Shown one piece after another: positions 25,204 to 60,221 of a DNA stretch of 64,000 bases (its first letter is position 1; the number at the start of each line of letters is the position of its first letter). This stretch comes from Methylotuvimicrobium alcaliphilum 20Z (GTDB lineage: Bacteria > Pseudomonadota > Gammaproteobacteria > Methylococcales > Methylomonadaceae). The stretch spans positions 3,410,001 through 3,474,000 of the forward strand of contig NC_016112.1 of NCBI RefSeq assembly GCF_000968535.2, written 5' to 3'. A program made the position numbers and the translations under genes. The notes beneath the pieces are model-generated. The model made no database searches and had not been told where the DNA came from. It saw only the letters and a list, made by a program, of their open reading frames with translations.

Positions 25204-27609
25204 CTATTCAACCAAAAAAGATTCAACCATCTTCAAGGTCTCTTGGGCTTCTTCGATACCGATGAATTTTTCATCTTTGCCGACGGCCCGCTCGAGATAC
25301 TCTCTCGCCCGTTTGTGATCGCCTTGTTTGAAATACACCATACCCAACCGGTATTGAGCGATCGCCGATTCGGGCGCGAGCGCGGTCACTTTCAACAACA
25401 ATTCTTTCGCCCTTTCGTAACTACCTTGCTTATAGGCCAGCACGGCGACCGTAAACAACATATCGGGATGCCCCGTTTTCGCCAGCGGTGCGACCAATTT
25501 GGCGGCACGTTCCAATGTTGCGCTATCATCGCCCAGTTCGGTCATATAACGGACCCAATTATTCAAAGCCACCGCCGAAGCCGGTTGCATACGGTAATTT
25601 TCCTCCAATAAGGCGAGCGCTTTATCATGAGCGCCGTCGCGGTGATAAATCGCAACTAAATCACCGGTCAACGTCGTCGATGCCGTTTTTTCGATGCCTT
25701 TTATCAAAACTTCGACCGCTTTGGTTTTATGGTTTTGATTGAGATAAATACCGGCCAAATTGCGGTACGGATTTTCCCACTCGGGCTTGATATCGATCGA
25801 CTTGTTGAATGCGGCGACCGCATCGTTCGCTTTGCCCGCCGCGGCCAACACGCCGCCCATTAGGTTGTAAGCGACAAAATGCTCGGGTTGCCGCTTCACG
25901 GCTTCTTGAAGCTTGGCCAAAGCACGGTCCGGTTTTTTTAATTGGAGCTGGGTATTGACCAATTGCGTCAACGGTTCGATCGCACCGGGTTGTTTGACCA
26001 ACGCATCGGCAAATCGCTCGACCGCCTTTTCGGAATTACCTTCGGCTTGGTATGCCAAACCGGCCAAATAATACCCCGTCGCTTCATCGGGAAAGGCTTG
26101 CTGCACAGCATCCGAGACTCGGCGGGCCTGTTCCCATTGCCGTTGTGACAAATAAATTTTGAACAAAGCTTCCAATCCTTTTTTATGATTAGGATCGGCT
26201 TGCAACAGCGCGCCGATTTGCTGGACGGCTTTGCCGGGATTACCGGTAGTCAGCAACAATTCAGCTAGTTCGAGTCTCGCATTCTCGTCGGTCGGCTGCA
26301 ATTGCACGATTTTTTCAAGATTTTCCAGCGCAGGCACCGCTTCTTGATTCAAGCGATGGGCGGTGCTCAACAATTTCAATACGGCGACATCGTTCTGGCG
26401 ATCCGCCAACACTTCACGAAAGTCTTTGACCGCTTCGGTCAAGCGGCTTTCGGCGAGCGCCACCTCGCCTCGCAAAATCAAGGCATCGCTTTGTTTGGGC
26501 TGCTTTTGCAACACGGATTCGAGTAATTCGGCAGCTCGCCCGTTCCGACCGGTATTAGCGTAGAGCCTTGCCAAGCGATTTTCGGCATTGATACCCTGAA
26601 CGCCGGAAGGGTCGGCCTCGACGATCTCCAATAACGCTTGCTCTGCTTTATCGGTCAGATTTTGTGCTAGATACAAATTAACCAAGCCGAATTTCAGCAC
26701 AAAGTCGTCGGGATATTCTTCCAACAGCGGAATCAATTCGGCTTCGGCGATTTCAGGTCCCCGCTTTTCGGTCAGGAAATCGAGCAAATTGACAATCGCC
26801 TGCCGATTATCGGCTAATTCAATAACGGCATCGCGCAATACGCTTTCAGCCTTGTCAAGTTGATTGTGTTCGATCAAAAACAAAGCCAAACGTTTACGGT
26901 GCAACAAGGGTTTCGGTTCGATTTTAATGATGTTTTCGAGAGTTTTTTCGGCCTTGTCGAAAGCTTGAGTCTTGACGTATAGATTGACCAGCATCAAACG
27001 TAACGAAGTATCGTCGGGATTTTGATCTGCATAACCGCGGACAAACTCGATCGCTTGATCCAGTTTGCCCGATTTGGCCTTGAGCGATGCAAGCAGCAAT
27101 ACAGCAGGAACATCACCCGGTCTTTTCGCGAGTGCGGCTTCCGCCTTGACGATCGCGGCATCGCTACTATTTTGCGCGGCCAAAATCCCAGCCTGCAAAA
27201 CCAAAGCATCGGGACTCTCGGCATCGATAGCCAACGCCTGTTTCATCAATGTCTCAGCCTCTTGGACTTGACCGGCCAACAGATAGATTTGTCCGAGTTT
27301 GACGCGTGCCTTCAAATGTTTCGGATCGGCATTGACGACCTGCCGGTAAAGGTCTGCGGCTTGTTGTACATTGCCCAACTTTACCGAAGTCTCGGCCGAT
27401 TCGAACAAGGCTTCAACTTGATCCGGCTTGAGTTCGAGCGCCTGTTCGAAAGCGGCAAGGGCTTGCTCATAATCACCTGCTTTAAATAATTGCTTACCTT
27501 GTTCGAGATATTCGTTCATTTTACGTTCGGTGTCGTCGCAGGCAGTCAAGGCTGCGGAAGAAAGGATGATGAAAAGAATGGGACGGTACTTTCGTATAAA
27601 AGACTTCAT
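25204..27609 (-). CDS. TPR-repeat lipoprotein
   Basis: 801 residues. A lipoprotein signal (ILFIILSSAALTAC, Cys about 24) is followed by tetratricopeptide repeats filling almost the whole protein, from EYLEQGKQLFKAGDYEQALA to QYRLGMVYFKQGDHKRAREYLE. Its size and repeat pattern resemble the PrsT-type TPR lipoproteins found near exopolysaccharide and exosortase loci. It probably acts as a periplasmic scaffold anchored to a membrane. It is on the same strand as the exbB-exbD-tonB-porin-coiled-coil operon, separated from it by about 480 bases of repeats, so it may be a distal member of that group or independently expressed. The ATG chosen fits the lipoprotein signal. Confidence 0.85.
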   Translation of the reverse strand: MKSFIRKYRPILFIILSSAALTACDDTERKMNEYLEQGKQLFKAGDYEQALAAFEQALELKPDQVEALFESAETSVKLGNVQQAADLYRQVVNADPKHLKARVKLGQIYLLAGQVQEAETLMKQALAIDAESPDALVLQAGILAAQNSSDAAIVKAEAALAKRPGDVPAVLLLASLKAKSGKLDQAIEFVRGYADQNPDDTSLRLMLVNLYVKTQAFDKAEKTLENIIKIEPKPLLHRKRLALFLIEHNQLDKAESVLRDAVIELADNRQAIVNLLDFLTEKRGPEIAEAELIPLLEEYPDDFVLKFGLVNLYLAQNLTDKAEQALLEIVEADPSGVQGINAENRLARLYANTGRNGRAAELLESVLQKQPKQSDALILRGEVALAESRLTEAVKDFREVLADRQNDVAVLKLLSTAHRLNQEAVPALENLEKIVQLQPTDENARLELAELLLTTGNPGKAVQQIGALLQADPNHKKGLEALFKIYLSQRQWEQARRVSDAVQQAFPDEATGYYLAGLAYQAEGNSEKAVERFADALVKQPGAIEPLTQLVNTQLQLKKPDRALAKLQEAVKRQPEHFVAYNLMGGVLAAAGKANDAVAAFNKSIDIKPEWENPYRNLAGIYLNQNHKTKAVEVLIKGIEKTASTTLTGDLVAIYHRDGAHDKALALLEENYRMQPASAVALNNWVRYMTELGDDSATLERAAKLVAPLAKTGHPDMLFTVAVLAYKQGSYERAKELLLKVTALAPESAIAQYRLGMVYFKQGDHKRAREYLERAVGKDEKFIGIEEAQETLKMVESFLVE

Positions 27610-27699
27610 GAATGAATGATTGTTTGCTTGGTCTGGAGATAAAGGCACCGTGCTGTATTAGCCGACTAAAGTGCTACCCGCATAGCGAGCCGGCGAGGC

Positions 27700-28075
27700 A
27701 ATAGGTATAAGTTTTCGCTCCTTCCCAAGCTCTAGCTTGGGAAGGTAGAGACCGGAAGCTCTAGCTTCCGGAGACCTGCCCGTCTGACCGATTGAACTTC
27801 GGGTTCCCACGGAGAGCCGTGGGAACGAAGAAACCGTAGGGTACGCATCGCGTACCAATTCAATAGGTTCCCGGCAGAAACAACGCTTTGACTAAAAGTA
27901 TCCGATATACAAAATGCTTGCTGCCTAAGCCAAAGAGACTTCGATGAATTATATGGAGCCCCACCTTTAGCGGCTTCGATATCGCGATCTGGAGATCGCT
28001 CCCGCATCTGAGACCTCAGATGCCCAGGCAGGATGAGTTTTGCATCCCGTCCGTAACGTTTTGATATCGCAACCG
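27700..28075. repeat. Cluster of short dispersed hairpins
   Basis: Tandem small palindromes: TTCCCAAGCT-CTAGCTTGGGAA, CCGGAAGCTCTAGCTTCCGG, GGTTCCCACGG...CCGTGGGAAC, the GGTACGC/GCGTACC palindrome at 27839-27857, and GATCTGGAGATC / CATCTGAGACCTCAGATG. They separate the TPR gene from the coiled-coil gene. No coding potential is seen here. Confidence 0.6.
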
Positions 28076-28091
28076 TCAGCTATTCCCTCTT

Positions 28092-28829
28092 CTACCCGCC
28101 ATCCTTTTGACTTTCCATTTCGCCAGATTCATGAGCTTCTTCAGATTCCGGTTCGGAAATCTCAGCTTCTTCCACGATTTCTGCCTCTTCGTAAACTTCT
28201 TCAAGCTCGGTCTTGCGTCTGTATTTTTGCTCGACCAACTTGTCTTCGTATTCCTGAATGATGTTTTCGAGCTCAACGCTTTTGAATTGGAAAACCGGCT
28301 CGGCCTGCACCAATCGAGCCCAAAGACTTTGCCTGCCATAATCTTTGAGCATGTCTCGAGTTGCTTGATACATCTTGATATTTTTATTCTCGCAGGAATC
28401 AAGTTCCGAAACGGTAAATTCTTGGAGTTTTTGCAGCTCGACATGCTCCAGGCTCAATTGGTTTTTGGACTGATTCAATACCTTATATTTTTCGACAACT
28501 TCGACCAATTTCCCATGAGTTTGATCGAGCCGGCCGCGAACCGCTTCAATGGTACTTTTTTGCGTGTCCAGCTCGCCGCCCAGTTTTTCTTCACGAGAAA
28601 CCGCCGCTTCATGCTGCTCTTTCAGCGTTTCGATCTCGGCGGCCAGCTTATCGTTTTCTGCTTTCAAGGCATCGCGCTCGGCGGTCATTTCGCGGACCAT
28701 CGCCTGCAGCTTGTTGATGACACGCGCGCTGCCGCCGTCGTCTCGCCTGGCTGCCTGAGCATAAACGGCATTCGATAACAATGAGGAAACAAACAAAACG
28801 GCCAAAAAATTTGAAATGATCTTGATCAT
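28092..28829 (-). CDS. Periplasmic coiled-coil protein
   Basis: 245 residues from the ATG that gives a clean signal peptide (ISNFLAVLFVSSLLSNAVYA, cleavage before QAARRD). The mature region has a long heptad-patterned segment (about 45-140, MTAERDALKAENDKLAAEIE, REEKLGGELDTQKS) and an acidic Glu-rich tail. No enzyme motif is visible. Its place as last gene of the exbB-exbD-tonB-porin unit suggests a structural or tethering role between the envelope layers. Family not recognised. Confidence 0.75.
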   Translation of the reverse strand: MIKIISNFLAVLFVSSLLSNAVYAQAARRDDGGSARVINKLQAMVREMTAERDALKAENDKLAAEIETLKEQHEAAVSREEKLGGELDTQKSTIEAVRGRLDQTHGKLVEVVEKYKVLNQSKNQLSLEHVELQKLQEFTVSELDSCENKNIKMYQATRDMLKDYGRQSLWARLVQAEPVFQFKSVELENIIQEYEDKLVEQKYRRKTELEEVYEEAEIVEEAEISEPESEEAHESGEMESQKDGG

Positions 28830-28926
28830 AAGATTTGATGATATTCGGAAATTGATCACAATTGGCCGTCCGGACAGGACAAACATTGGCTCGCCTCTTC
28901 TATAGATTTCACGGCTCACCACAACC

Positions 28927-30690
28927 TTAAAACTTGGTATTGATATCGATTTGGAAAACGTCGATACCATAAGGCGGCCCGGTTATCGCTTCTGCGGTTA
29001 GCCATCGGCTAGTTAACCAAACATTGTTGAGCAGCGCATAGTTAGCCCCGAGAATCCAGCCTTTAGCATTCGTGCCGCCGAGGTGAAAGTCCGAGTCCGA
29101 AAAGGCATCGACTACCGCATCGCGTTCGACTCGTTTATAGGCGACAAAAGTACTCCAATTGCCTTTTTTATCGACTCTCAACCAACCCAAGTCGGCACGT
29201 AATTGCCAAGCCGTAGTTTGTTCGTCCACTGCCCCGCTGCCCAAAGCGCCGCCTAATGCTCTCGCGGCTGCCACTTTTTCGCTGTCGAAGCCGATATTCT
29301 TTGCATAATCACCGGATAACGTTAAGTGAATCGGATCAAATAAGGCCATATCATAGCGTGCGGTAAAATTGACGATTTTAAACTCAGACGCTAAACCAAC
29401 CATACCGGGAAATTCGCTGGGTAAAGGATCATTAAATGCACCGTCACGGCAGATTGTTGCCAGCGTATTACCGCCTTGCATGAATTCCGGCATCGAAGCG
29501 GTATTTTCACGAGAATTGACATCGCAGGTACCGGATGCGGTTGATGTATTCGGCCTGGCTGTGATATTTTTAAAATCATAATAAGCCAAAGCCATTCTCA
29601 GATTGTCTTTATTTTTAAATCCCCAGTCCAAACCAACCTGTCCGCCGAACAGCCATTTATCGTTATGACTGAATGGAGCTTCCTGCAGCGGAAAAGCCCC
29701 ACCTGTCGCGTAGAGTACTCGTGCGCCGTCACCTAAACCATTAGACAATCCTAAGTTGTATCGATAAGTCGCCGCAAAACCTTCGAATGACAAATCGGTA
29801 TCCCAAACCAACTCGGAGCCACTGGTGAACTCCCCCCCTCCAACGAAAAACGGATTTTTGATACGTCCGCCCATCAGAGAAAGCCAATTAAAACCGAAAC
29901 TGTCGACATCGTCGTATTGAAGATAGGCCCGGTCGATGTTGAAGTCATAACGATCGCCTGTTTGCCCCATGGTTTGATTGGTTGAAACGGGATCTCTGAA
30001 ATTACCGGTCGATAGACGGATTCCGGCTTCTAAACCTTCCGCGATATCGGCATCGATGCCCAACCGAAAGCGTTGCCGAAAGCGCTGATTGTTCGTCGTA
30101 GTATTTTCGATAAGGTCCAACCCCGCATTTCTGGCGCCGCCCAGTTGATTGATTGCTTGTCCATTCGGATAAAAAGGGAAAATACTCAAGCCGCTGGCAT
30201 TTTCATCGGCATAAAAAACCGGCTCATACCGCAAACGCAAATCCCCCGACAACTTAAATTTTCGAGTCCATTCCGGCAAGGCATCGGCCAAACCCCAACC
30301 TTCTTCCTTGGCCTTACTGATTACGTCACCGGTAACATCTTCGCGCAATTCCGCGCGGATCTCATCGCGAATTTGATCCTTGATAAAATCGGGAATATAG
30401 GAAACCCGGACTTCGTCGTCGGCGAGTTCTCCAACCGATGCCGCATTGCTTAGCGCCGCGGCGGTCCTTGCTTGCGATGCGATCTTACCGGCTTCGGCTT
30501 CGGCTTCCTTGAACATCGTTTCGGCGGTTTCTTCGGTCAAAACGCCTTGTTTGACCAATTGCTTGATTAGGCTTTCGGTCGTGCTGCGCAGTTTCAGCAA
30601 TTCCTCTTTTTCACCGGCCTGCACCGGCCCTAAAACGCTCAACAACACTAAGGCCGTGACAGCCTTTTTCTGTAACATTGTCTTTCCCAT
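28927..30690 (-). CDS. Putative porin with N-terminal helical region
   Basis: 587 residues. A signal peptide (VTALVLLSVLGPVQAG) is followed by a charged helical stretch (about 25-145; EELLKLRSTTESLIKQLVKQ, EIRAELREDVTGD) and then a beta-barrel from KFKLSGDLRLRYEP to the C-terminal FQIDINTKF, ending in Phe as outer membrane barrels do. This matches the 'putative porin' family. It sits 9 bp after tonB in the operon, so it could be the outer membrane partner of the TonB system although no TonB box or plug domain is visible. An in-frame ATG at 30678 is an alternative start. Confidence 0.85.
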   Translation of the reverse strand: MGKTMLQKKAVTALVLLSVLGPVQAGEKEELLKLRSTTESLIKQLVKQGVLTEETAETMFKEAEAEAGKIASQARTAAALSNAASVGELADDEVRVSYIPDFIKDQIRDEIRAELREDVTGDVISKAKEEGWGLADALPEWTRKFKLSGDLRLRYEPVFYADENASGLSIFPFYPNGQAINQLGGARNAGLDLIENTTTNNQRFRQRFRLGIDADIAEGLEAGIRLSTGNFRDPVSTNQTMGQTGDRYDFNIDRAYLQYDDVDSFGFNWLSLMGGRIKNPFFVGGGEFTSGSELVWDTDLSFEGFAATYRYNLGLSNGLGDGARVLYATGGAFPLQEAPFSHNDKWLFGGQVGLDWGFKNKDNLRMALAYYDFKNITARPNTSTASGTCDVNSRENTASMPEFMQGGNTLATICRDGAFNDPLPSEFPGMVGLASEFKIVNFTARYDMALFDPIHLTLSGDYAKNIGFDSEKVAAARALGGALGSGAVDEQTTAWQLRADLGWLRVDKKGNWSTFVAYKRVERDAVVDAFSDSDFHLGGTNAKGWILGANYALLNNVWLTSRWLTAEAITGPPYGIDVFQIDINTKF

Positions 30691-30699
30691 TAACTGAAG

Positions 30700-31350
30700 T
30701 TAAATGCGGTTCGTAATTCGAAATTTGATCGGCTGTTTCATCCCGGCCGGCGGGGGTTTATTGATTCGTTTCAACTTGGCGAGCGTCATTTGCAACTTTT
30801 CGTCGATCCGAGCATCGTCACTGCCCCGGACCAATTCAAATCGAGTCACATTACCTTGCTTATCGACCCAGATACGAACCGTCGCCGTGTAACGCGTTCT
30901 ACGTAAATCGTCGACCTCGGAAATCACCACTTGCATTTGATTCCTGATAATATTGCCGTACCAAGCGTTGGGATTGCCGCTCAACAATCCACGCCCGCCT
31001 TTCCGTGCAGCCAAGCCAAAGCCGTCGGAACCGGCGCTGCCGTCAGCATCAAGTCCCAAACTATCGGCAGGCGGCGCATCGTCGATATCCGGGAGATTTT
31101 CAGGCTCCGGATCAGGCTCCGGGATCTTTTCCTCGATCTTTTCCGGCTCGGGCGGCTTCTCAATTTTCGGTGGGGGCGGAGGAGGCGGCGGCTTCAACAA
31201 GGTAATCGGCTGGATTTTTTTTTGCGGACGCTCGTCGCTGTCTTGCTTGAAATTGCTAATGCCGTAAATTATCAGAGCCACCAAAATCGAACCAATCACG
31301 CCGCCGATGATCTTCGGCAGATGCACCTTCCAGCTTTTGTGTTTACTCAT
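30700..31350 (-). CDS. tonB: TonB-family energy transducer
   Basis: 216 residues with the TonB order: an N-terminal inner membrane anchor (IIGGVIGSILVALIIYGI, residues 14-31), a proline/glutamate-rich periplasmic spacer (LLKPPPPPPPPKIEKPPEPE), a Gly/Asp linker, and a C-terminal domain (TATVRIWVDKQGNVTRFELV, then QPIKFRITNRI). TonB relays the proton-motive force from ExbB-ExbD to outer membrane proteins. It lies 7 bp after exbD. The anchor lacks the usual SHLS His, and the C-terminal domain lacks a clear YP motif, so this is a dedicated paralogue more than a housekeeping TonB. Confidence 0.9.
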   Translation of the reverse strand: MSKHKSWKVHLPKIIGGVIGSILVALIIYGISNFKQDSDERPQKKIQPITLLKPPPPPPPPKIEKPPEPEKIEEKIPEPDPEPENLPDIDDAPPADSLGLDADGSAGSDGFGLAARKGGRGLLSGNPNAWYGNIIRNQMQVVISEVDDLRRTRYTATVRIWVDKQGNVTRFELVRGSDDARIDEKLQMTLAKLKRINKPPPAGMKQPIKFRITNRI

Positions 31351-31357
31351 AACCGCG

Positions 31358-31762
31358 TTATTTGACTAGGTTCTGCGTCACCAGACCGATCTGCGTAATA
31401 TCGATGCGGCCCATTAAAGCCAATACATCAACAACATTCTGATATTGCACGGTCGCATCGCCTTTGATGATCACCGGCAATTCCGGATCAGCCGCACGGT
31501 ACTGTTGTAGTAATGATTCCAACTGCTCCAAGGTTACCGGATAGGTATCGAGAAAAATCGTACCGTCGGCCGTGATCGTGATTGCCTTGGTTTTCGGCTT
31601 GGCCAAACTCGGCGTATCGCTGGCTTTCGGTAAATTGACGGTAATTCCTTGCACGGCGGCCGTGGTCATGATGATAAAAACGATCAATAACACATAGGCC
31701 AAATCCAACATGGACGTGACATTGATATCGTCGTAACTTTCCAGTTCTTCTTTGTAACGCAT
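31358..31762 (-). CDS. exbD: ExbD/TolR-family proton-channel subunit
   Basis: 134 residues: a short cytoplasmic start, one membrane segment (VTSMLDLAYVLLIVFIIMTTA) with the proton-carrying Asp (residue 20, MLDLAYV), and a periplasmic domain (ITITADGTIFLDTYPVTLEQ, VIIKGDATVQYQNVVDVLAL). It forms the channel with ExbB and drives TonB. It sits 76 bp after exbB and 7 bp before tonB in one operon. Confidence 0.93.
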   Translation of the reverse strand: MRYKEELESYDDINVTSMLDLAYVLLIVFIIMTTAAVQGITVNLPKASDTPSLAKPKTKAITITADGTIFLDTYPVTLEQLESLLQQYRAADPELPVIIKGDATVQYQNVVDVLALMGRIDITQIGLVTQNLVK

Positions 31763-31838
31763 AATAAATAACTCGTTCGGATTTGGTCGGAGCGAGACTA
31801 AAGATACTCGCCGCCTGGCAATTCAAGAGGTCCGCTGA

Positions 31839-33647: not shown

Positions 33648-33678
33648 TGGTGCTCTCTATTGCTTAACTTAAAGCAAA

Positions 33679-33712
33679 ATTATTTCAGAGATTTATGACA
33701 CGATTATGACGG
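33679..33712 (-). promoter_or_regulatory. PhoB box and -10 of the exbB operon
   Basis: Read on the minus strand: CCGTCAT-AATC-GTGTCAT, two 7-bp half-sites 11 bp apart, as in the PhoB box consensus CTGTCAT-N4-CTGTCAY; then 10 bases and AATAAT as -10. The exbB ATG is 31 bases beyond the -10. No -35 is needed in PhoB-activated promoters, since PhoB replaces it. Confidence 0.75.
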
Positions 33713-34126
33713 ATTAAGCAGTATGACGATCTAATTTCGGAAAAAATGCGTCGATCTTAATAATAAGGTATAAAAAAATTGTGACAGGCAACTCGAAACA
33801 CAGTTATCAAGCTCGAATAAAAAGAATTAAAGATGATTCAAAGCAACGACAGGTACGAAAAATCATCGCAAACGTAATACATTTCATCAATTTTTAACAC
33901 AACTGTAAAACTATAGACTCATTGTTGTGAAAAAATTCTCCTAAGTCGAGTGGCTTAATACGGGCTGTTCCGTAAAGACATTTAGTCAAAGCAAATTATT
34001 AGCTCACCGCTGCTCTTTTAAGAACTTGTTTGAAAGTGTCTTTTAGAGAGCTTTTTAAATATCCAAAGGCCCGTGTGAATTTTTACATTTGCAACCATTT
34101 CCATTAACTCTTAAGAGAATTTAATC
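33713..34126 (+). promoter_or_regulatory. Upstream region of the PstS-like gene, with weak Pho half-sites
   Basis: ATTTCAT (33881), TTTTAAC (33892) and CTGTAAA (33903) stand exactly 11 bp apart and match the PhoB half-site at 5, 4 and 5 of 7 positions. This is suggestive only. AAGAGA precedes the ATG as ribosome site. No gene is seen in this stretch. Confidence 0.3.
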
Positions 34127-35632: not shown

Positions 35633-35705
35633 GTAATCCTCTAATCCTAACCACCCCTCTGGAATACGTGTCTGCAATAGGCCGAGCAAGGATGCACCTT
35701 TATTT

Positions 35706-35730
35706 ACAGCCTCCGTCCTGCGGGGGCTGT
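35706..35730 (+). terminator. Attenuator-like hairpin before tpsB
   Basis: ACAGCC pairs with GGCTGT around TCCG...CGGG, followed by CCTGTTTG. It sits between the binding-protein gene and tpsB and may reduce read-through. No strong separate promoter for tpsB is visible. Confidence 0.4.
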
Positions 35731-35756
35731 CCTGTTTGTAACATGCTAACAATTCT

Positions 35757-37346: not shown

Positions 37347-37357
37347 AGGTAATGAAC

Positions 37358-40300: not shown

Positions 40301-43300
40301 AACGTCAAGATCACTGCCGATGCCTTGAGCAACGTCTCGTTAGTCTCCGATTCGTCTTTATTTTTCGATGGATCGATCAAAGCAAACGGCGGTAACGTAG
40401 CCTTGAGCATCATTCCGCCGCAAGGCTTACCGACGCTGGACCCATTGTATCAACCCCGCCAGGGACTTTGGCTCGGCGACAATGCGCGAATCGATGTTTC
40501 CGGTATCGCGATGACGTTGACCGATGCGTTCGGGCTCAAAACGGGCATCGTCCACAATGGAGGAAACGTTAATTTAACCGCCGCCCGCGGTTACATAGCC
40601 TCCAACAGAGGTTCGCAGATCGATGTATCGGGAACGGAAGCCTTGCTAAACCGCCCTCGCCTATTGCCCGGCGCGGAAAATATTACCTTCAGTACGGAAA
40701 AAGTTGGATCGCACGGAGGAACTATTACCATCAGCAGCGCCGAAGCCATTTTCATCGAAGGCGGCATGCTGGCCAAAGGCGGTAAAGCGCCCGGCACGTC
40801 CGGCGGTACTTTAACGGTCCGTCTAGACGACACCCTCAGAGAAATCCCCGTTGAAGAAGGAGTGATTCCTAACTTTCCGATAAAACCGGGCATTCTCAAT
40901 TTCTCCCAAACTAAGAATGAATTTTTTGATGCCTCCTTCAGCCAATACGGCGATGCGCTTCCAACCGGACTGCAAAGACAAGGCTTTATAGCAGCCCAAC
41001 AAGTGTCTGATTCCGGTTTTGCAAATTTGAACGTGCAAGCGGACGGCGAAATTCGCTTTCAGGGTGATATCCATTTGGATTTACAACATGCCGTAAACTT
41101 CGACAGCCCAAAAATGGCTTGGCAAAGACTATCGGAAAACGATACTAGCACGGTCGTTTTCAATGCGGCGCATGCGTCTCTAGGCTCGAGCCGAACTCGA
41201 CGTGCGACCGGCAACCCAACGGGTGGAGACGGCCATCTTCAGGTCAATGCCGACCTAATCGAACTATTTGGAGGTGTTTTTACTTCCGGATTCAAGCAAG
41301 TCGATCTGAACGCGGATAGCGATATTCGCTTACGCGGCATTCGCACATTGTTTACGCAACGCGACTATTTGGGTGAATTTTCGACGTATTCGGCGTTGAA
41401 CCTTAAGGCCGATCAAGTCTATCCGACAACGCTCAGTGATTACAGATTGACTGTAAAAGGCGATCCTAACGGAAGCATTGCGTTCAGCAGCGGGGATCAA
41501 TCTCGACCGATCTTATCCGCCTATGCAAAATTGACGGTCACAGCTCCGAACATTCAGCATGACGGCGCCATTAAAGTGCCTTTCGGCGAATTAACATTCG
41601 ATGCATCTCAAACGATTCATTTCGGCGCAAACAGTTTGAGTTCGGTATCCGCCGAAGATCAAATTATTCCGTTCGGTGTCACGGAAGCCGGTTTGGAATG
41701 GTTATATCCGATCGATAATCAAAATCTGATCGTGCAAACGCCAACCAAAAAAATAACCGTCAATGCGGACCGAATTCAACATGACGAAGGCGCCGTTATC
41801 GATATTTCCGGGGGCGGCGATTTGCTGGCCTACGAATTCATCCCCGGCATCGGCGGTTCCGCCGATGTCTTAGCTACCGGTAATTCTTTTGCGGTCTTGC
41901 CCAACCATTCCGGTTACGCACCGTTCGACCCGCTGGAATTTCCCGGTTCGGGTTTGTCGATCGGCGACAGCATTTATTTGGGTGAAGGGAGCGGTTTAAA
42001 AGCCGGATATTACACGCTATTACCTGCGCGCTATGCATTGCTTCCCGGAGCTTATTTGATAACACCTCAGCAAGACAGCGTCAATATGGCCCAAGGCAGC
42101 CGTTCGGTCAATTTAGACGGTGCCCCAGTCGTGGCAGGATTTAGAGCGATCAGCGGCACCAACATCAAGGACCAGAGCTGGTCCGGATTTGCCGTCGAAC
42201 CCGGCAAAATTGCCTTGACTCGTTCACAATTGGACCTATCCACAGCCAATCAATTTTTTGTCGAACAAGCACAGCGTAAAGAATCGCCGATTCCTCGCTT
42301 ACCTGAAGATGCGGGATCGCTGCTGTTCAACGCAAAATCACAATTAGAATTGCCTTCCGTTCTCGCCAACGCCAAAAACGGCGGGCTGGCAGGTTTGGTC
42401 GATGTCATTGCCGACAACATCGCCGTGGTCAACGATAAGACAGGCGCTGCAAGCCTCGTAGAACTGAGTGTAAGCGATCTCGATACCTTTACCGTAGGCA
42501 GCTTATTTTTAGGCGGTATCAGAACAATCGACAGTGAGACCGGTGCGATCAAACTCGACGTCAAGTCCAAAACTGTCGAAATCGCCGAAGGAACCCGCCT
42601 CGAAGGTTCGGAAATCATTATAGGCGCCACGGACAGGATTGAACTCCAAGCCGGTGCTCAAATCGTGGCAGCAGGCGGCAAAGACAGCTCGGCACCCGGA
42701 CAGATTTTGACAACCACGGGAGACGGTGCCCTGTTACGCGTTTCCGGCGATGCGCAAGCGCAAATCGTCAGAACGGGCACCCAAGGTCTGAAAGGAGATC
42801 TGTTGATCAGCGACAATGCTCAAACCTTGGCTCCGAGCGGTTCGATACTCTTGGATTCGACCCGGAATCTACAAATGAATGGCGTGTTGGATGCCGGCAA
42901 GTCATTAAATATTGCCGCTGAAGCCATCAATATCGGTGAAGTAAGCGAAAATCTACCCGGGCTTTCGTTGGATAACGGGCAGTTGAGTCAATTGAATGTC
43001 GAACAACTGGTGCTGACCAGCCGCAGCAACTTGAACATTTATGGCGGCGTTTACCGCACCGATGCTTCGGGTTTAGCGCTCAGAAACGACGAGCTCGAAC
43101 TAATGCCGATCGAATTCAATCTTTTGACGATCGCTACAAAAGGTATTGCCGGTTTTGACAATTCCGGCAAATCCGCCGGTCTTTCTGCCGATACCGTCAC
43201 GTTGACCAATGCATCCAAGTCAGTGCAGACCGAAAAAGGCAACGGGACGGGCTCCTTGTCGATCGCTGCCGACAATCTAGTATTGGCTGGAGGCGACTTT

Positions 43301-46300
43301 ACCTTGTCGGGATTCAATGATATCAATTTGAATCTAGCCGAGTCGTTAATCGGTTCTAGTGTAAACACACTCAACACTCTGGCCGACACAACGATCACAA
43401 CAGGCTTTATTACCGGTACTTCAGGTTCCGAAACCAGGATCGATGCCGACACTTATCGCTTAGCGCTCAATCACAACCAAGCCGGCTCTGTGGATTCGCA
43501 ACCGGGTATTGGAGCACGGTTCAATTTAAACGCAGGCCATGTCGTCATCGATACGCCATTACAATTCAACAGCGGTATCGTAAAAGCGAATGCCAAAACA
43601 GGCGATATTGTCCTCAAAGAGAATGCCGTCATTGATGTGTCCGGAACAATGGTAAGAGCGGGTTTAAGCGAATCGGCTCCGATATCAGCCGGACGTATCG
43701 ATTTGACCGCGCGGCAGAACATTAACACCGAAGCCGGTAGTCAACTATTGTTGAATGCTATCAGCCCACAAATGTCGGCAGGATCGCTTGCACTTTCCGC
43801 AACCACGGGATTGGTCAATTTGAATGGCACGATCAACGCGATGGGAGGTAATCAGGCCGAGGGGGGGGCGGTTCGGCTCGACCTCGGCAGCATGGGCGGT
43901 AACCCGTTCGGCTTGATGAATCAGAGCTTGGTGGATTCCGGTTTTAGCAGAGCAATAGATTTACGATTGAGAAATGGCAACCTAGTCATTGGTGAAGAGG
44001 ATTCGATAAGCGCGAACGATATCAAATTAACCGTCGACAAAGGCGCATTGACAATTGCAGGCACGCTCGATGCCAGCGGCCAACATGGCGGTAGCATCGA
44101 ACTCAATGCTCATAGCAGACTAACCTTGTCCGGAAGTGCACGATTGCATGCCAACGCCACCGAAGCATCAGGCGATGGCGGCAAGGTCAGACTCACCTCG
44201 ACTAACGGAGGCGGTATCAGCATTCAGAATGGCGCATCGATCGATGTCTCCGCCAATGGAGGCCGCGAAGGCGATGTGCATATTCGTGCCGAACGCCTGG
44301 CAGGACAGGTTAATGTCGCCCCGATTGCCCCCGGCACCATTGTCGGCGATTCTAACGTCGTCATCGAAGCAGTCGCACAGTACAACCTCAACAGACTGGA
44401 CGCTGCAGCAATCAATAGCATTAGAAACGATACCGCTTCGTACATGAATAGCGTTTCGACAACGGCATTCGGACCGGGATTCGAATTAGCTCCCGGAATA
44501 GAGGTCAAATCGGAAGGCAATCTCACCTTGGCCGCCAACTGGGATTTAGTCGATTGGCGTTATGGATCCGAACAAACACCCGGCTATTTGACCCTGCGAG
44601 CAGGTGGAGATTTGTTGCTCCAAAACGGCGTAAGCGACGCTTTCAAAAATGGCGTACTTCAGGTGACGCCTACCTTCTCGAGGCCTGTGATCGATATGTT
44701 GCAGCCCGGGCGTTCATGGAGTTACAACTTCGTTGCCGGCGCGGACCTGAATTCTTCAGATACGAAAATGGTAGTGGCCGCGGACAATCTGAATTTCGGC
44801 GATATGCGCCTCTTCAACGATGTGAAGATTCGCACAGGCACCGGGTCCATCGATTTCAGCGCAGGACGCGACATTGTCTACGGCAACGATAAATCGGTCG
44901 TGTACACGGCAGGAAGGCCGGACGATGAGGATCGTTTCGGGTTTCCATTGATACGCGTGGCTTCCAATTTTTATGTCGAATACCCTAAAGACGGCGGCGA
45001 TATCCGCTTCAGCTCTGGACGCGATATTCGCGGCGCGGTGACCAATCAAATCGCCTCGGATTGGCTACTTAGAACCGGCAATTGGTCCCGAAACGAAACC
45101 CACACGGGGGAAAGACCGACCGCTTGGGGTATCGCAATTGGTACGCGAACCGGTTCAGGCATCGCGCCGGATTACCGGCAAAATGTTGGCGCCTTGGGCG
45201 GCGGCAATATCACTATCACAGCCGGCGGTACGGTTAGCGATCTCTCCGTGGTCATTCCAACCACCGGCAAGCAAGTCGGACAAAGAGTCGATCCGAACGA
45301 CTTTAATAATCAAAATTACTTGACCAATGAAGTCGAGATCAATGGCGGCGGAAACCTAAACATCTACGCCGGAGGTGACCTAAAAGGCGGCATCTATTAC
45401 GTCGATAACGGTACGGCGACCTTTAATGTTGCCGGCTCGCTCAATGCCGGCTCGTTCAAGACCGTCAGTATTGCGGAAATGAATCCGATATTGGCCTTGG
45501 GCAATGCCCAATATCACATTACTGCCGGCAAAGATATCGCCCTACAAGCCATTATCGATCCGATGATTTTGTCGCAACCGGCCAATAAACGCCCGGACTT
45601 ACTATCGATCTTCTTTAGATACGGTGAGAACAGTGCAGTCAATCTGACTTCGCTTACCGGAAACATCAGCCTCGGCAACGATGTTTCCGGGGTAGTCGAT
45701 TTAATGAATTTCCAACGCGGCGCTCTGATCAGCTTCGACGGCGCAGCCAGAGACGCTCTATCGGTGGCCCCCGGAACATTGAAGGCCTACGCCTTATCAA
45801 ACGACATCATATTTAAAAACGGCTTGATCATGTATCCGAGCAAAATCGGTCAATTTGAGCTTTTTGCCGCGAATAATATCATAACCGCCAGCAATGGCAA
45901 TGCCGTGAATGTGACCATGTCGGACACCAACCCGAATCTATTGCCGACGGTATTGAATCCTGCCGCCAACTATAACGACGCCAGGCTGAGATTGGTACTG
46001 TCCGGTATCAGTAACGAGCCGGACAAAATCTATGCTTCGATTCCAAATCATATTAATGATCCTATACCGGCTCTGATCAGCACAGACGTTGGCGATATCC
46101 TGGGCAAGGACCCTTTCCAATTCATTATGGCGAAACCGACACAAGTGTCGGCCGGCCGTGATATTCGTAATGTCAGCTTGCAATTTCAGCATAATATCGA
46201 AGATGCCGAATCGATCGTATCGGCCGGCCGCGATTTCAAATTCGACATCGTTCGAAATCCCGCTACCGGAGCATTGGTTAATGTTGTTCAACGTATGGAG

Positions 46301-47671
46301 GTTTCGGGTCCGGGCCGTTTGACATTAATGGCCGGACGACATGTCGACTTGGGTTCTTCCGAAGGTATCACGACTACGGGCAATCAAGTCAACACGGCAT
46401 TAGCGGAGGACGGTGCTGCAATTAATGTGATTGCAGGAATAGCGCAAACCCAATTCGCGGCACCGGATTTTATGAAAAGCTACCTAAGCAATGGTGAAAG
46501 CCTTTACGAAAGTTACGAGCTTGCGGTTGCCGACTATATGCGAAGAATCACCGGCAATGACGATTTGACAGTGGATCTGGCGCGAGCAGCCTTTGCACGC
46601 TTGCCGGCTGTTGAACGATCGCATTTCAACGCACCTTATTTAGCGGACTTGATCGAAACCTTCAACGGACTCATGAAAAATTACGGTAATCGTTTTTCGA
46701 TTGCTAAAAACAGCTTCGATAGCGCTAGCGATACCCAAACCCGGTTCAATTTCAAACTAGAAATGGATAGAGCGCAGTTTGAACTTCTAGCTGCCATCGA
46801 AACGCTATTTCCGGGAACCACCGTTTTGGCCGGTCGCCAAGATTATACGATCGATCCCGTCAATGGCACTGTTTTCAGAGAAGGAGCTTCGGCCAGCAGT
46901 ATCTTGGAAGATGCATTTTCTAAAGACAGAAACAAAACCCAAACCGGCGATATTTCGATGTTTTTCAGCAAAATACACAGCACCGATGGCGGCGACATCA
47001 ATTTATTGACGCCCAATGGCGGCATCAATGCCGGTTTGGCGGTTAATTCCAGTGGTGCCAAAGATGCATCGCAACTGGGTGTCGTAGCCATCAAAAAAGG
47101 TGCCGTGCATTCGATTGTCCGAGACGATTTTCAAGTGAATACGACCCGAGTCATGACGCTCGGCGGCGGCGATATCTTAATCGGTTCGACGGACGGCAAC
47201 ATCGATGCCGGTAGGGGAGCAAAAACAGCCTTGGCGGCCCCAGCTCCGATCATTCGATTCGACAGTGAAGGCAACATAATCATTGAATTACCGCCTGCCG
47301 TGGCTGGCAGCGGTATCCGAGCGAACATGGCGCCTGACGGCAGTCAAGGCGATGCCTTATTGTTTGCGCTTCAAGGCATTATCGATGCTTCGGAAGCAGG
47401 GGTTGGAGGTAAAGACGTCACCGTGGGTGCGACAGCCATCGTTGGATCCGACAATATCGATGTCGGCGGAGTATCGGTCGGCGTACCAACCGCTTCGACA
47501 GGAAGTTTGGCTGCAGGCCTCGGTAATGTCAGTAATGTGGCGGCCAGCATAGCGCAAGCCATAGACGATAGCGCGGATGTTGCCAAATCAGCCAAAGAAC
47601 AAATGGACAAAGCTGGAGCGCAGGGAATCATCAGTGTCGATATCATCGGTTTTGGCGATGAAGATGTCTGA
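37358..47671 (+). CDS. Giant TpsA exoprotein (filamentous haemagglutinin family)
   Basis: About 3,437 residues. After a long signal region (to ATHAAGN, about residue 45) comes a TPS domain: GNHMRIDQHTDRAILNWQSF, SIALNRIFQNDPSRILG and QVYLVNSNGFVFGKNS, the last being the family's NPNGI-type motif with NSNGF here. The rest is a repetitive beta-helix of short hydrophobic/Gly repeats (for example GSNARIDLQGG, GARIDVSG-like turns recurring across thousands of residues). The last 400 residues turn helical (RITGNDDLTVDLARAAFARL) and then end in a Gly/Ala/Ser-rich tail, GFGDEDV. Few cysteines, as in exported adhesins. Likely a surface filament or adhesin. The ATG at 37358 has AAAGG 7 bases upstream; an ATG 6 bases earlier is possible. 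Confidence 0.9.
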   Translation: MANQQTSKKSQSVSTGFTLSPIAACVRIAMLGGIGIYPLAATHAAGNLPVPSPVWASMGNASASITGNHMRIDQHTDRAILNWQSFNIGQDHSVHFQQPGANSIALNRIFQNDPSRILGTLTANGQVYLVNSNGFVFGKNSKVDVRGLVASTLAITDDVFDQGITKVFANNGTAAFNGNGDFYIKNEDGSFRLDEDGNKIKIAINVDEGAQIKSTEGQNILIIAPTITNEGNIEADDRQVVLAAATDRVYLQEAGNEGLLVEVQTGGEINNLGSIASKRGTISLVGFAVNQKGKVSASTSMNINGKVRLIAREGATTFQTPDGYAMQASRTTRATDTGDDLGTSATVRLGENSQTEILPELDTGLTAIDEQIQPLSQIDIMAHKVHFQSGSQVNLPGGKINVVATQNPSNPLQASANRNDSRILIDSGAKIDVSGVKSTVKPMESNVVAVELRLNQLSDAPLQRNGVLFGETIFVDIRAGTPLANIQPAIDAIERPLGERLAKGGEINLSSEGDTIVKDNAILDFSGGAVKFLDGYIRTSKLISNGRVFDISEAHPSLRYDGIYGKVVKNHKKWGVEQAWITEGPFALARKEAGYTDGHDAGSLTIASPNVILEGQLNGTTVSGRLQRTLAERPKGGTLTIDMRSASEVDQAVVFANVLTNSTVNVDLNQPFPSSNDSRFTPLVLRTQPLSQSGIMDLSVLAHGTVTVSDGSRLKLADGAQLNLQGGAITIGGEIKGAGAQVNLATDLNARTQGRLSGAISLGSNARIDLQGGWVNDLTTPFDLLDNNKITLDGGSFIARANGDIDILKGSRIDVGGGAWLQTSGNIQDGKAGGIHLHAEAETTGSNITLDGALSAYAIRQGGTLELEANAIAILRRREEELEGLRPLQLEADFFGKGGFSDYILTANINGLVVDEGVKIKLQQTNRLLNGDAINRSSSNSIAGISRLGKLPAIDRLPSNLTLQSVHSINPNPNSHLIVNKNVKITADALSNVSLVSDSSLFFDGSIKANGGNVALSIIPPQGLPTLDPLYQPRQGLWLGDNARIDVSGIAMTLTDAFGLKTGIVHNGGNVNLTAARGYIASNRGSQIDVSGTEALLNRPRLLPGAENITFSTEKVGSHGGTITISSAEAIFIEGGMLAKGGKAPGTSGGTLTVRLDDTLREIPVEEGVIPNFPIKPGILNFSQTKNEFFDASFSQYGDALPTGLQRQGFIAAQQVSDSGFANLNVQADGEIRFQGDIHLDLQHAVNFDSPKMAWQRLSENDTSTVVFNAAHASLGSSRTRRATGNPTGGDGHLQVNADLIELFGGVFTSGFKQVDLNADSDIRLRGIRTLFTQRDYLGEFSTYSALNLKADQVYPTTLSDYRLTVKGDPNGSIAFSSGDQSRPILSAYAKLTVTAPNIQHDGAIKVPFGELTFDASQTIHFGANSLSSVSAEDQIIPFGVTEAGLEWLYPIDNQNLIVQTPTKKITVNADRIQHDEGAVIDISGGGDLLAYEFIPGIGGSADVLATGNSFAVLPNHSGYAPFDPLEFPGSGLSIGDSIYLGEGSGLKAGYYTLLPARYALLPGAYLITPQQDSVNMAQGSRSVNLDGAPVVAGFRAISGTNIKDQSWSGFAVEPGKIALTRSQLDLSTANQFFVEQAQRKESPIPRLPEDAGSLLFNAKSQLELPSVLANAKNGGLAGLVDVIADNIAVVNDKTGAASLVELSVSDLDTFTVGSLFLGGIRTIDSETGAIKLDVKSKTVEIAEGTRLEGSEIIIGATDRIELQAGAQIVAAGGKDSSAPGQILTTTGDGALLRVSGDAQAQIVRTGTQGLKGDLLISDNAQTLAPSGSILLDSTRNLQMNGVLDAGKSLNIAAEAINIGEVSENLPGLSLDNGQLSQLNVEQLVLTSRSNLNIYGGVYRTDASGLALRNDELELMPIEFNLLTIATKGIAGFDNSGKSAGLSADTVTLTNASKSVQTEKGNGTGSLSIAADNLVLAGGDFTLSGFNDINLNLAESLIGSSVNTLNTLADTTITTGFITGTSGSETRIDADTYRLALNHNQAGSVDSQPGIGARFNLNAGHVVIDTPLQFNSGIVKANAKTGDIVLKENAVIDVSGTMVRAGLSESAPISAGRIDLTARQNINTEAGSQLLLNAISPQMSAGSLALSATTGLVNLNGTINAMGGNQAEGGAVRLDLGSMGGNPFGLMNQSLVDSGFSRAIDLRLRNGNLVIGEEDSISANDIKLTVDKGALTIAGTLDASGQHGGSIELNAHSRLTLSGSARLHANATEASGDGGKVRLTSTNGGGISIQNGASIDVSANGGREGDVHIRAERLAGQVNVAPIAPGTIVGDSNVVIEAVAQYNLNRLDAAAINSIRNDTASYMNSVSTTAFGPGFELAPGIEVKSEGNLTLAANWDLVDWRYGSEQTPGYLTLRAGGDLLLQNGVSDAFKNGVLQVTPTFSRPVIDMLQPGRSWSYNFVAGADLNSSDTKMVVAADNLNFGDMRLFNDVKIRTGTGSIDFSAGRDIVYGNDKSVVYTAGRPDDEDRFGFPLIRVASNFYVEYPKDGGDIRFSSGRDIRGAVTNQIASDWLLRTGNWSRNETHTGERPTAWGIAIGTRTGSGIAPDYRQNVGALGGGNITITAGGTVSDLSVVIPTTGKQVGQRVDPNDFNNQNYLTNEVEINGGGNLNIYAGGDLKGGIYYVDNGTATFNVAGSLNAGSFKTVSIAEMNPILALGNAQYHITAGKDIALQAIIDPMILSQPANKRPDLLSIFFRYGENSAVNLTSLTGNISLGNDVSGVVDLMNFQRGALISFDGAARDALSVAPGTLKAYALSNDIIFKNGLIMYPSKIGQFELFAANNIITASNGNAVNVTMSDTNPNLLPTVLNPAANYNDARLRLVLSGISNEPDKIYASIPNHINDPIPALISTDVGDILGKDPFQFIMAKPTQVSAGRDIRNVSLQFQHNIEDAESIVSAGRDFKFDIVRNPATGALVNVVQRMEVSGPGRLTLMAGRHVDLGSSEGITTTGNQVNTALAEDGAAINVIAGIAQTQFAAPDFMKSYLSNGESLYESYELAVADYMRRITGNDDLTVDLARAAFARLPAVERSHFNAPYLADLIETFNGLMKNYGNRFSIAKNSFDSASDTQTRFNFKLEMDRAQFELLAAIETLFPGTTVLAGRQDYTIDPVNGTVFREGASASSILEDAFSKDRNKTQTGDISMFFSKIHSTDGGDINLLTPNGGINAGLAVNSSGAKDASQLGVVAIKKGAVHSIVRDDFQVNTTRVMTLGGGDILIGSTDGNIDAGRGAKTALAAPAPIIRFDSEGNIIIELPPAVAGSGIRANMAPDGSQGDALLFALQGIIDASEAGVGGKDVTVGATAIVGSDNIDVGGVSVGVPTASTGSLAAGLGNVSNVAASIAQAIDDSADVAKSAKEQMDKAGAQGIISVDIIGFGDEDV

Positions 47672-47949
47672 TACGACCTCCTTTGTTAGGCAACAGCGTA
47701 TTTTGTCATATTAATGTCATGATTCCTTCACCGAGCTGTCATATTGCGCTGGCATAATTCCATTGAAACATCTGAATCTTAAGGTGACCTGCTTATTCCA
47801 CTAGCTACTAAGTCTGAGCGCTCGCGATGACATTCTATTTTAGCCGACAATTTCTATCGCTTTATATAGGCCCGGTTCAACGCCTGCACTCTTCTAAAGC
47901 AAAATCGCTACTTATTTCCAATTTTAACTAAAGTTTTAAGGAATGTTTT
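47672..47949 (+). promoter_or_regulatory. PhoB-type promoter with four phased half-sites, before the PKD gene
   Basis: TTGTCAT (47703), ATGTCAT (47714), CCTTCAC (47725) and CTGTCAT (47736) stand at exact 11-bp spacing, i.e. two consecutive Pho boxes; each matches the CTGTCAY consensus at 5-7 of 7 positions. CATAAT (47753-47758) follows the last half-site by 10 bases as -10. The remaining 190 bases to the ATG form an untranslated leader with no gene. Confidence 0.8.
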
Positions 47950-49590
47950 ATGACCATATTAGACCTATCATCGGGTTCACTAGAACCGGTAAACATTAAG
48001 CCTCATAAGGAAAACCGAGGCAGAACTAACTGTTTCAAACGCAATTCTAAATCGCAGCTATTGATTGGCTTAATGATTGCCATCAGTTCATTGTCTCTTT
48101 CACAAGTTGCTGAAGCTGCCCCACCTAAAGTCAGAATCGACAAGATTGCGCCGGTTGATGAAGGCACAGTTGTTACTTTGAATGGCAGCAATACCTTTGA
48201 TGTTGACGGTAAAGAATTGACATATACGTGGAGACAAGTACAAGGCCCCGATGTCGTCATTAATAATCCCAATACTCCTATCGCCTCATTCACTGCGCCG
48301 ACTATTGAAAAAACCAATAAACGTTCCAAACCGCTCAGATTACGCTTCGAATTGGAAGCCGATAATGGCGATGACAGAAGAGCAACTGCAAAAAGACGTG
48401 TAGCAGTCCGAGTTCTACCTGTCAATAATCCGCCTATCGCGAATGCCGGGCCGAATCGCTCGGTAACTTGGGAGGCAGCTTCATCAGGAATTGACCTAAA
48501 CGCATCCGGCAGTACCGATGACGGACAAATTATTCAATACCGATGGAAGCTCTTGACTAAAAGAAATCAATTACCGAGAGGCGCCAAAGTCAGATTGACA
48601 AACCGAAGAGCAGAGCTTGCTTCATTTACATTTACCAGTCCCGATCAAACCTCTCCGGTTACATTGGATTTTGAACTGTTCGTTCGGGATAACGACAGAG
48701 CCATAGACAGAACTAACGTTTCTATAACCGTAGCCGAAGGACTAGCCTCCCCAGTCGCCAATGCCGGTAGCGACCAATCTGTAAATTCAGGCGCCTCTAT
48801 TAATTTAAGCGGTGCGGGAAGTACGGGCACCATTAACAGCTATGTTTGGGAACAAACCTCCGGTCCATCGGTTACCTTATCCGATGCAAATAGCGTAACA
48901 ACCGGCTTTACTGCGCCAACCGTTACTGGAGCCACCGTTTTGACTTTTAAATTAACTACAACAAATAGCACGGGCTCATCGGAAGATACGGTCAGAGTCA
49001 CCGTCAATCCTATTGAGGCGGCTCCGGTAGCCAATGCCGGCAGCGCACAAACGGTCACATCGGGAGCGTCCGTAACGCTTAACGGCACTGGAAGCACAGG
49101 AACCATCGACAGTTACACATGGGAACAAACTGCCGGACCGTCAGTGACTCTGTCCAACCCAAGCAGTGCTTCAGCCGGATTTACCGCACCGACCGTCGCC
49201 ACACCGACCGTGTTGACTTTTAGACTCACGACAACGAATAGCGCCGGATCATCGTCCGCAACGGTTAACGTGACAGTCAATCCTCAAGCAAGCGGTAATA
49301 TCAGCGCCACTTTAGAAACCGATGACGTGACTCTAAACGACCCAACCGTATTGCTCTTGTCGAATATACAAGGAGGATCTCAACCCTACACTATTACCGT
49401 AGATTGGGGCGATGGCGAAATTACGGGACCGGTTACTCTCAATTCCGGAGTTACGAATTACAACGTTGAGGATTTCTACTATGAAGAAGTTGGTTCTTAC
49501 AATATTACCGTTACGATCAGGGATGCAAGCAATCAAACGACAATATTGACGGAAAACATTACGGTTGCGGAATCCGCTGAATGTAATTAA
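47950..49590 (+). CDS. Secreted PKD-repeat protein
   Basis: 546 residues. An extended N-region (about 36 residues) precedes a hydrophobic signal (LLIGLMIAISSLSLSQVAEAA). The mature part is a string of PKD-type Ig-like domains of about 90 residues: the first starts near PKVRIDKIAPVDEGTVVTL, the second near NPPIANAGPNRSVTWE, then two nearly identical copies (VANAGSDQSVNSGASINLSG and VANAGSAQTVTSGASVTLNG) and a C-terminal domain with WGDGE, a calcium-loop-like DWGDGEITGPV. Such proteins are extracellular or periplasmic adhesion modules. It stands under the strong PhoB-type promoter, just downstream of tpsA, so it may be a phosphate-starvation surface protein. Enzyme motifs are absent. Confidence 0.85.
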   Translation: MTILDLSSGSLEPVNIKPHKENRGRTNCFKRNSKSQLLIGLMIAISSLSLSQVAEAAPPKVRIDKIAPVDEGTVVTLNGSNTFDVDGKELTYTWRQVQGPDVVINNPNTPIASFTAPTIEKTNKRSKPLRLRFELEADNGDDRRATAKRRVAVRVLPVNNPPIANAGPNRSVTWEAASSGIDLNASGSTDDGQIIQYRWKLLTKRNQLPRGAKVRLTNRRAELASFTFTSPDQTSPVTLDFELFVRDNDRAIDRTNVSITVAEGLASPVANAGSDQSVNSGASINLSGAGSTGTINSYVWEQTSGPSVTLSDANSVTTGFTAPTVTGATVLTFKLTTTNSTGSSEDTVRVTVNPIEAAPVANAGSAQTVTSGASVTLNGTGSTGTIDSYTWEQTAGPSVTLSNPSSASAGFTAPTVATPTVLTFRLTTTNSAGSSSATVNVTVNPQASGNISATLETDDVTLNDPTVLLLSNIQGGSQPYTITVDWGDGEITGPVTLNSGVTNYNVEDFYYEEVGSYNITVTIRDASNQTTILTENITVAESAECN

Positions 49591-53714: not shown

Positions 53715-53720
53715 TGGGTT

Positions 53721-57231: not shown

Positions 57232-57280
57232 AAAAATTATATATTACTGCTGTTTCCTAAGCCCGACCGGCCTCAAGGAA

Positions 57281-60220: not shown

Positions 60221-60221
60221 G

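Follow-up and report, generated by a model that had tools for sequence, protein, structure and literature searches.

The 64,000-nucleotide stretch analysed here (the window; Methylotuvimicrobium alcaliphilum 20Z, contig NC_016112.1, positions 3,410,001 to 3,474,000 of the forward strand) carries a two-partner secretion (TPS) locus joined to its own ExbB–ExbD–TonB set and porin, and we find that this locus is a real, conserved module of a known, poorly understood kind, that of the Pdt system of Pseudomonas aeruginosa. What is new is the end of the secreted protein TpsA, where a disordered linker some 48 residues long leads to a conserved peptide. We tentatively read the locus as a Pdt-type surface system induced by phosphate starvation, in which TonB would grip the TpsA tail, and regard this reading as possible rather than probable. 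Type V secretion is described as energy-free (PMC5422565), and Pdt is the published system found with a TonB set, the TonB part of which is termed uncharacterised in PMC7035377.

Proteins were assigned by Pfam, with 19 window proteins scanned. On the minus strand lie exbB, exbD, tonB and the genes for the Porin_5, coiled-coil and TPR proteins; pstL, tpsB, tpsA and pkd lie on the plus strand, with phoBR further downstream. The features of the module are:

28092–28829, minus strand: secreted coiled-coil protein at the PA0697 position (profile match and alignment)
28927–30690, minus strand: Porin_5 protein at the PA0696 position (Pfam, 696 bits)
30700–31350, minus strand: TonB (TonB_2), its C-terminal domain also found by the VreA profile
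31358–31762, minus strand: ExbD (PF02472)
31839–33647, minus strand: ExbB with N-terminal DUF2341 and LamG (Laminin_G_3) domains (Pfam), its motor profile nearest to TolQ in a comparison with solved motors
34127–35632, plus strand: pstL, encoding a PstS-like secreted protein, a module partner in gammaproteobacteria
35757–37346, plus strand: TpsB outer-membrane transporter (Pfam POTRA_2, ShlB)
37352–47671, plus strand: TpsA, a filament protein of 3439 residues (Pfam TPS domain and C-terminal DUF3739)
47165–47491, plus strand: DUF3739 of TpsA (Pfam)
47501–47668, plus strand: disordered C-terminal tail of TpsA (AlphaFold2 predicted local distance difference test, pLDDT)
47630–47656, plus strand: conserved tail peptide of TpsA, ISVDIIGFG in the window (tail comparison)

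A TPS-domain TpsA adjoining a TpsB with POTRA domains and a ShlB-type barrel places the locus in two-partner secretion (type Vb), and exbB, exbD and tonB share a single operon, as expected of a TonB energising set. Pfam supports the gene set given in a preliminary description of this DNA (TpsB/TpsA, PKD protein, ExbB–ExbD–TonB, porin, coiled-coil protein and TPR protein). The window ExbB runs from an apparent signal peptide through DUF2341 and LamG to the motor part, and its closest named relatives include Methylovulum, Methylobacter and Methylomonas (53–58% identity). It had also been called sugar-binding, a label that goes back to nothing beyond the LamG fold match and that we do not retain.

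Co-conservation, which the preliminary description had named as the point on which it could fail, is strong for the core genes in both samples studied. The first comprised 274 gammaproteobacterial genomes from many families, whose kinship is not corrected for in the statistics. The fused DUF2341–LamG–ExbB protein was found in 19 genomes at E 1e-20 (18 counted) and the DUF3739 TpsA in 19 (18 above the cut-off), with the weak genomes G162 (fused ExbB) and G223 (DUF3739) excluded and G101 counted by virtue of a 70-residue ExbB match where its contig ends. Porin_5 was matched in 37 genomes at E 0.001, full-length (at least 466 bits) in 19; in the remaining 18 the matches begin at profile position 142 or beyond. 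pstL was found in 17 genomes at E 1e-15, every one among the 19 with full-length Porin_5. All four proteins fall within the same 19 genomes, set against 94 genomes with any TPS domain. Fused ExbB and DUF3739 are common to 17 genomes; the two genomes with a single miss, G104 and G200, have completeness values of 85% and 64%, respectively. Fisher P values for co-occurrence ranged from 8e-23 to 3e-27, and fused ExbB was found in none of the 77 genomes having only other TPS proteins. These distributions point to a gammaproteobacterial co-inherited set of PstS-like protein, DUF3739 TpsA, DUF2341–LamG–ExbB and long Porin_5, with TpsB, ExbD, TonB and usually the coiled-coil protein alongside. The near-perfect co-inheritance links the DUF2341 appendage of ExbB-type motors, listed in 2025 as of unknown function (PMC12505986), to one TPS class.

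Gene order was compared in the best 80 of 531 related stretches from named genomes, which span Methylococcales, Burkholderia, Bradyrhizobium, Verrucomicrobia, Desulfobulbus and others (several phyla). exbD was present in all 80 loci, tonB in 79, the porin gene in 75, the coiled-coil gene in 70, a TpsA C-terminus or TpsB in 73 and the TPR gene in 7. The order exbB–exbD–tonB holds in 79 loci, the remaining one ending after exbD, and, judged by locus length, four of the five porin misses and eight of the ten coiled-coil misses fall at contig ends. As pkd occurs in none of the 80 loci (the same genus was not covered), the PKD protein was rejected as a part of the module; we count its gene and the TPR gene as local extras. 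A tandem pair of exbD genes was seen in L084, L089, L098, L102, L107, L108, L109, L111, L112 and L252, mostly betaproteobacteria.

After DUF3739, TpsA proteins of this class end in a stretch rich in A, S, G, V and T and a peptide such as LTVEVLGFGD, which is either terminal or followed by a charged tail. We collected 61 distinct closed TpsA frames and, after excluding three L067 frames and the duplicates L025 and L030, compared 56 tails; as controls, 20 TpsA stretches lacking DUF3739 were taken, of which five without an internal stop codon were dropped, leaving 15. A strict peptide pattern matched 31 of the 56 tails and nothing in 110,621 upstream residues, a looser one matched 47 tails compared with 2 of 1446 upstream windows, and the loosest matched 52 tails compared with 42 of 1446 windows; none of the three matched any of the 15 controls. 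The linker from the conserved GVP to the peptide has a median length of 48 residues (quartiles 46–50; 47 of the 56 tails were measurable) and is tight in length despite its low-complexity sequence. In an AlphaFold2 model of the TpsA C-terminus (mean pLDDT 82.8), the final 56 residues (506–561) lie nearly all below 50, and conservation rises from 0.7–1.5 bits at model residues 530–546 to 1.9–3.7 bits at 549–558. This arrangement resembles a docking peptide at the end of a fixed-length tether. A tail folded back on DUF3739 was also considered and is unsupported, the tail being disordered in the model. Searching folds with the C-terminal model gave no significant match (best E 0.61), and a PDB profile search with the TpsA C-terminus returned nothing at E 1. 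In the literature searched, mostly open papers, none tied TonB to DUF3739 or to a C-terminal peptide of TpsA, and DUF3739 gave no match. The co-inheritance of the module supplies this peptide and a candidate partner for it.

The case for TonB as the binder of the tail is an indirect one. Proteins resembling VreA, with an STN domain and a TonB C-terminal domain, were recognised by eye in nine of the 80 loci; Pfam confirmed the two domains in each of the three submitted to it, and in L083 one is the next such frame past a tpsA end. Their TonB domain is of the same type as that of the module TonB. The TonB half of the VreA profile gave 21 matches in 18 of the 274 genomes at E 1e-6, all of them, by coordinates, beside fused ExbB or full-length Porin_5. 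Because the VreA type joins STN to a TonB domain of this type, and TpsA neighbours both, TonB becomes a candidate tail binder. VreA itself was rejected as a universal partner, since no match over both halves of its profile was found in the 274 genomes (a doubtful match in G247 spans part of both). The window's genome likewise has no both-halves VreA match, and we do not class the locus as a PUMA3 signalling locus, which would have vreA–vreI–vreR beside the module; vreI and vreR were not searched for. Small, apparently secreted proteins matching the TonB profile were seen near the module in Burkholderia and relatives (L059 20178–20792; L061 20063–20602; L063 16174–16656 and 20501–21037; L076 16426–16974), and Pfam found no TonB match in the two submitted to it (L059 and L063 16174).

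On this basis we propose that TpsB would export the TpsA filament with its N-terminus leading and that the DUF3739 end would fold outside the cell, with the disordered linker of about 48 residues threading back through the TpsB barrel and leaving the conserved peptide hanging in the periplasm. There the dedicated TonB, driven by ExbB–ExbD, could grip the peptide and put force on the filament or the TpsB plug, which would hold, retract, remodel or release the filament. The proposal narrows the earlier suggestion, that TonB power might remodel or release the filament, to one specific contact. Together with the PstS-like protein and a stalked porin, the filament might belong to a surface that scavenges phosphorus. 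Because the test against ordinary TonB boxes failed, the gripping of a periplasmic TpsA tail by its cognate TonB is a step that we infer, and one we hold to be somewhat less than an even prospect. Doubtful, and of wider reach, is a class of proton-powered TPS systems in which the dedicated TonB, instead of acting on a receptor, would grip the conserved C-terminal docking peptide of a secreted filament, threaded back through TpsB, and so pass inner-membrane force to an extracellular fibre.

Several observations weigh against the TonB-gripped tail. The periplasmic placement of the peptide is assumed. A canonical TonB box in the tail was rejected, as the peptide goes unrecognised by a weight matrix built on 32 TonB-dependent receptors: mean best scores were 5.7 for tails, 2.2 for controls and 16.2 for receptors, and the top-scoring window in the tails mostly lay elsewhere than the conserved peptide. 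This matrix was learnt automatically, with box placement doubtful for several receptors of the window's genome. On visual inspection, a V/L-x-I/V-I/V-G core is common to the tail and some of these receptor boxes, which is a lead only. The peptide patterns were composed after the tails had been seen, so the contrast with the controls weighs more than the match rates. Three genomes (G119, G136 and G150) hold a second fused ExbB locus with no second DUF3739 or full-length Porin_5, and 39 of 41 tpsB-holding loci have no pstL, so a tie between pstL and the module is shown only in gammaproteobacteria and a few further cases. The conserved, low-confidence segment in the N-terminal part of the modelled porin could itself be the client of TonB. 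In P. aeruginosa, mutants with insertions in tpsA, tpsB, the tonB homologue and PA0696 are reported to have kept vreI-induced virulence in zebrafish (PMC2729926), and expression of the Pdt regulon under phosphate starvation did not require VreA (PMC4971064).

The porin segment leads to an alternative that we consider unlikely and yet serious, in which TpsA and the PstS-like protein would catch a phosphorus compound, as HxuA does its ligand, and TonB would drive its entry through Porin_5 by contacting the N-terminal extension. Full-length Porin_5 is limited to the 19 module genomes, porin residues 92–115 or so are conserved within a low-confidence region, and pstL co-occurs with the module, all of which would fit uptake. 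Against it, the AlphaFold2 model of the porin (pLDDT 82) shows N-terminal helices, the low-confidence conserved segment and a 16-stranded barrel with no plug, and its nearest solved fold is that of a porin, OmpM1 of Veillonella (E 4e-16). The likeness to OmpM1, which has a periplasmic attachment stalk, is confined to the top fold match for the barrel, with 14% identity and a TM-score of 0.42 over the query. None of the 19 window proteins scanned was recognised as a TonB-dependent receptor, and the TonB-box matrix was applied to the porin in a single scan of the window protein. For HxuABC of Haemophilus influenzae, we know of no dedicated ExbBD–TonB or porin, and the client there, unlike here, is the TonB-dependent transporter HxuC. 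HxuABC is nevertheless a precedent for uptake, linking a TPS protein to TonB-dependent transport. The C-termini of HxuA and HMW1 are expected to remain in the periplasm (PMC5422565), which also favours the periplasmic tail proposed for TpsA.

Rather than pulling, the TonB-type domains of TonB and VreA might read the tail and report that TpsA has been exported or engaged. The nine loci with STN–TonB proteins, the same STN–TonB annotation on a Methylosinus plasmid and the reported induction of pdtA by host-cell contact (PMC7035377) speak for such sensing; deletion of vreA leaving the regulon unaltered under phosphate starvation (PMC4971064) and the want of a both-halves VreA match in the window's genome speak against it, and we judge it improbable. 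That TonB force would aid export of TpsA itself is very unlikely: the DUF3739 class of TpsA is closely coupled to the motor, but type V translocation is said to need neither energy source nor gradient (PMC5422565), and the 77 genomes with other TPS proteins do without fused ExbB. We give just as little credence to co-regulation alone, whereby Pho-controlled genes would travel together with no physical link; PhoB does control both halves in Pdt (PMC4971064), but co-occurrence is near-perfect and the order fixed across phyla. A giant adhesin, SiiE of Salmonella, is secreted by a type I system, SiiAB–SiiE, that works without TonB. Its likeness to a TonB-gripped TpsA lies in a proton motor of the same superfamily, listed as the driver of type I secretion (PMC12204202).

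Pdt had been named as the nearest relative, and by published gene lists it is the closest system found. The P. aeruginosa list comprises pdtA, pdtB, exbB2, exbD2, tonB4, the putative porin PA0696, PA0697, PA0698 (YbjN) and PA0699 (PpiC) (PMC7035377), so that Pdt/PUMA3 (PA0690–PA0699) and the window have in common the TPS pair, ExbB–ExbD–TonB, the porin and a PA0697-type gene. In both, exbB–exbD–tonB–porin–coiled-coil gene stand in this order with the tps genes beside them. Since homologues of TPS, ExbBD and PA0696 had already been noted together in several bacteria (PMC2729926), the association itself is not new. Features of the window compared with Pdt are the direct Pho boxes, the TPR and PKD genes and the divergence of the tps genes from the exbB operon; for phdA and the hxc genes of the Pdt regulon, the comparison covered the 19 window proteins scanned. 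The preliminary description had also set the locus apart from Pdt by its giant TpsA, its ExbB fusion and its PKD protein. The first two prove to be module-wide (relatives were compared, not the PAO1 sequence), and the third is the local extra noted above. LapA and LapB (PA0688 and PA0689), numbered just ahead of pdtA, are termed DING-like (PMC2225411).

The PstS-like name of pstL is a weak assignment, because PBP_like_2 was matched in only 2 of 11 aligned relatives (best E 1.7e-4) and its profile failed to match those of three PBP_like_2 proteins of the same genome (probability 3.5). pstL of the window has no Pfam match over the cut-off, and it was absent from the matches at E 1 when the window's genome was searched with PBP_like_2; of the PstS-like binding protein proposed earlier, the gene stands and the PstS identity is left in doubt. 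By an estimate from coordinates and open-frame lengths, pstL precedes tpsA at a distance of no more than about 2.6 kb in 15 of the 17 genomes and lies on a separate contig in the other two; G136 carries three copies. Among near relatives of the window's genome it occurs in 16 of 41, and tpsB adjoins it in 10 of 12 loci retrieved. In the 80 loci it was found in three by single sequence, and the profile gives the same three; where tpsA lies ahead of exbB, the 10 kb flank stops within tpsA. A search of viral contigs found no relative of pstL.

Control by phosphate was approached by scoring Pho boxes against an 18-position consensus. The remaining features concerned, and the two local extras, are:

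33684–33712, minus strand: tandem Pho box with three half-sites, 37 bp upstream of exbB
47703–47720, plus strand: top Pho-box match of the window (15/18; shuffle P 0.0025), upstream of pkd
52416–54413, minus strand: phoR and phoB (Pfam), with a 14/18 Pho-box match at 54458
25204–27609, minus strand: TPR-repeat lipoprotein-like protein (Pfam TPR families; NCBIfam PrsT-like, under the cut-off), a lineage-specific extra
47950–49590, plus strand: PKD-domain protein (Pfam), a local extra

The window holds nine sites of at least 14/18, compared with a mean of 1.65 and a maximum of 5 in 60 simulated sequences; five are intergenic and four lie within genes. At the exbB promoter the three half-sites form two overlapping 14/18 sites (shuffle P 0.02), the tpsA–pkd gap holds the best site, and one 14/18 site precedes phoB; the placing of phoBR in the same window was correct. 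The claim that two good Pho boxes govern the divergent parts is only half right, because on its own strand the pstL–tpsB–tpsA side has no site above 12/18; the exbB side stands. The exbB-side box recurs in two near relatives, L215 and L216. Among 11 other stretches upstream of exbB, L036 and L041 reach 16/18 and nine score 11 to 13, and in several exbB follows another gene. Upstream of pstL, on its strand, L221 and L225 reach 14/18 and L215 reaches 13, with none above 12 in L216 to L220, L222 and L223. Pho control from the exbB-side box is plausible on these motif scores. For Pdt such control is experimental, PhoB binding the pdtA and phdA promoters (PMC4971064), and PdtA, PA0696 and PA0698 rise strongly under low phosphate (PMC9769906).

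The window's genome (4.8 Mb) has 16 MotA/ExbB-family matches and eight receptor plugs, so the module motor is not its only one. Fused ExbB also occurs on plasmids, and 4 of 11 such records were examined. A Methylosinus plasmid has the same gene set together with STN–TonB, sigma-factor and FecR genes (VreAIR-like), a PPIase (peptidyl-prolyl isomerase) and YbjN; its ExbB aligns over 97% of the window ExbB and its haemagglutinin has the tail peptide. An Aquabacterium plasmid carries a pstL-like gene, a POTRA protein, a haemagglutinin, DUF2341, ExbD twice, TonB and a porin, and a Cupriavidus plasmid carries ShlB, ExbB, ExbD, TonB, a porin and YbjN adjoining type II secretion genes. On a Methylomagnum plasmid, alkaline phosphatase and PhoX genes lie between the ExbB operon and the haemagglutinin gene, with no porin annotated there; a maturation cluster for ribosomally synthesised and post-translationally modified peptides is annotated next to the haemagglutinin gene (L250 23962–29475). 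Two Klebsiella plasmids (NZ_CP065459.1 and NZ_CP084804.1), far from the usual hosts, have a DUF2341–ExbB type gene of about 35% identity.

Elsewhere in the window, dispersed direct and inverted repeats of 67–133 nucleotides were seen at 50194–50995, 51997–52084, 55467–55626, 57126–57232, 20099–20231 and 60199–60334. Their inverted pairs are 86–93% complementary, and the repeats look like a family of the genome's own. A 7-base unit of the CCTCTTT type forms a tandem run at 14304–14434.

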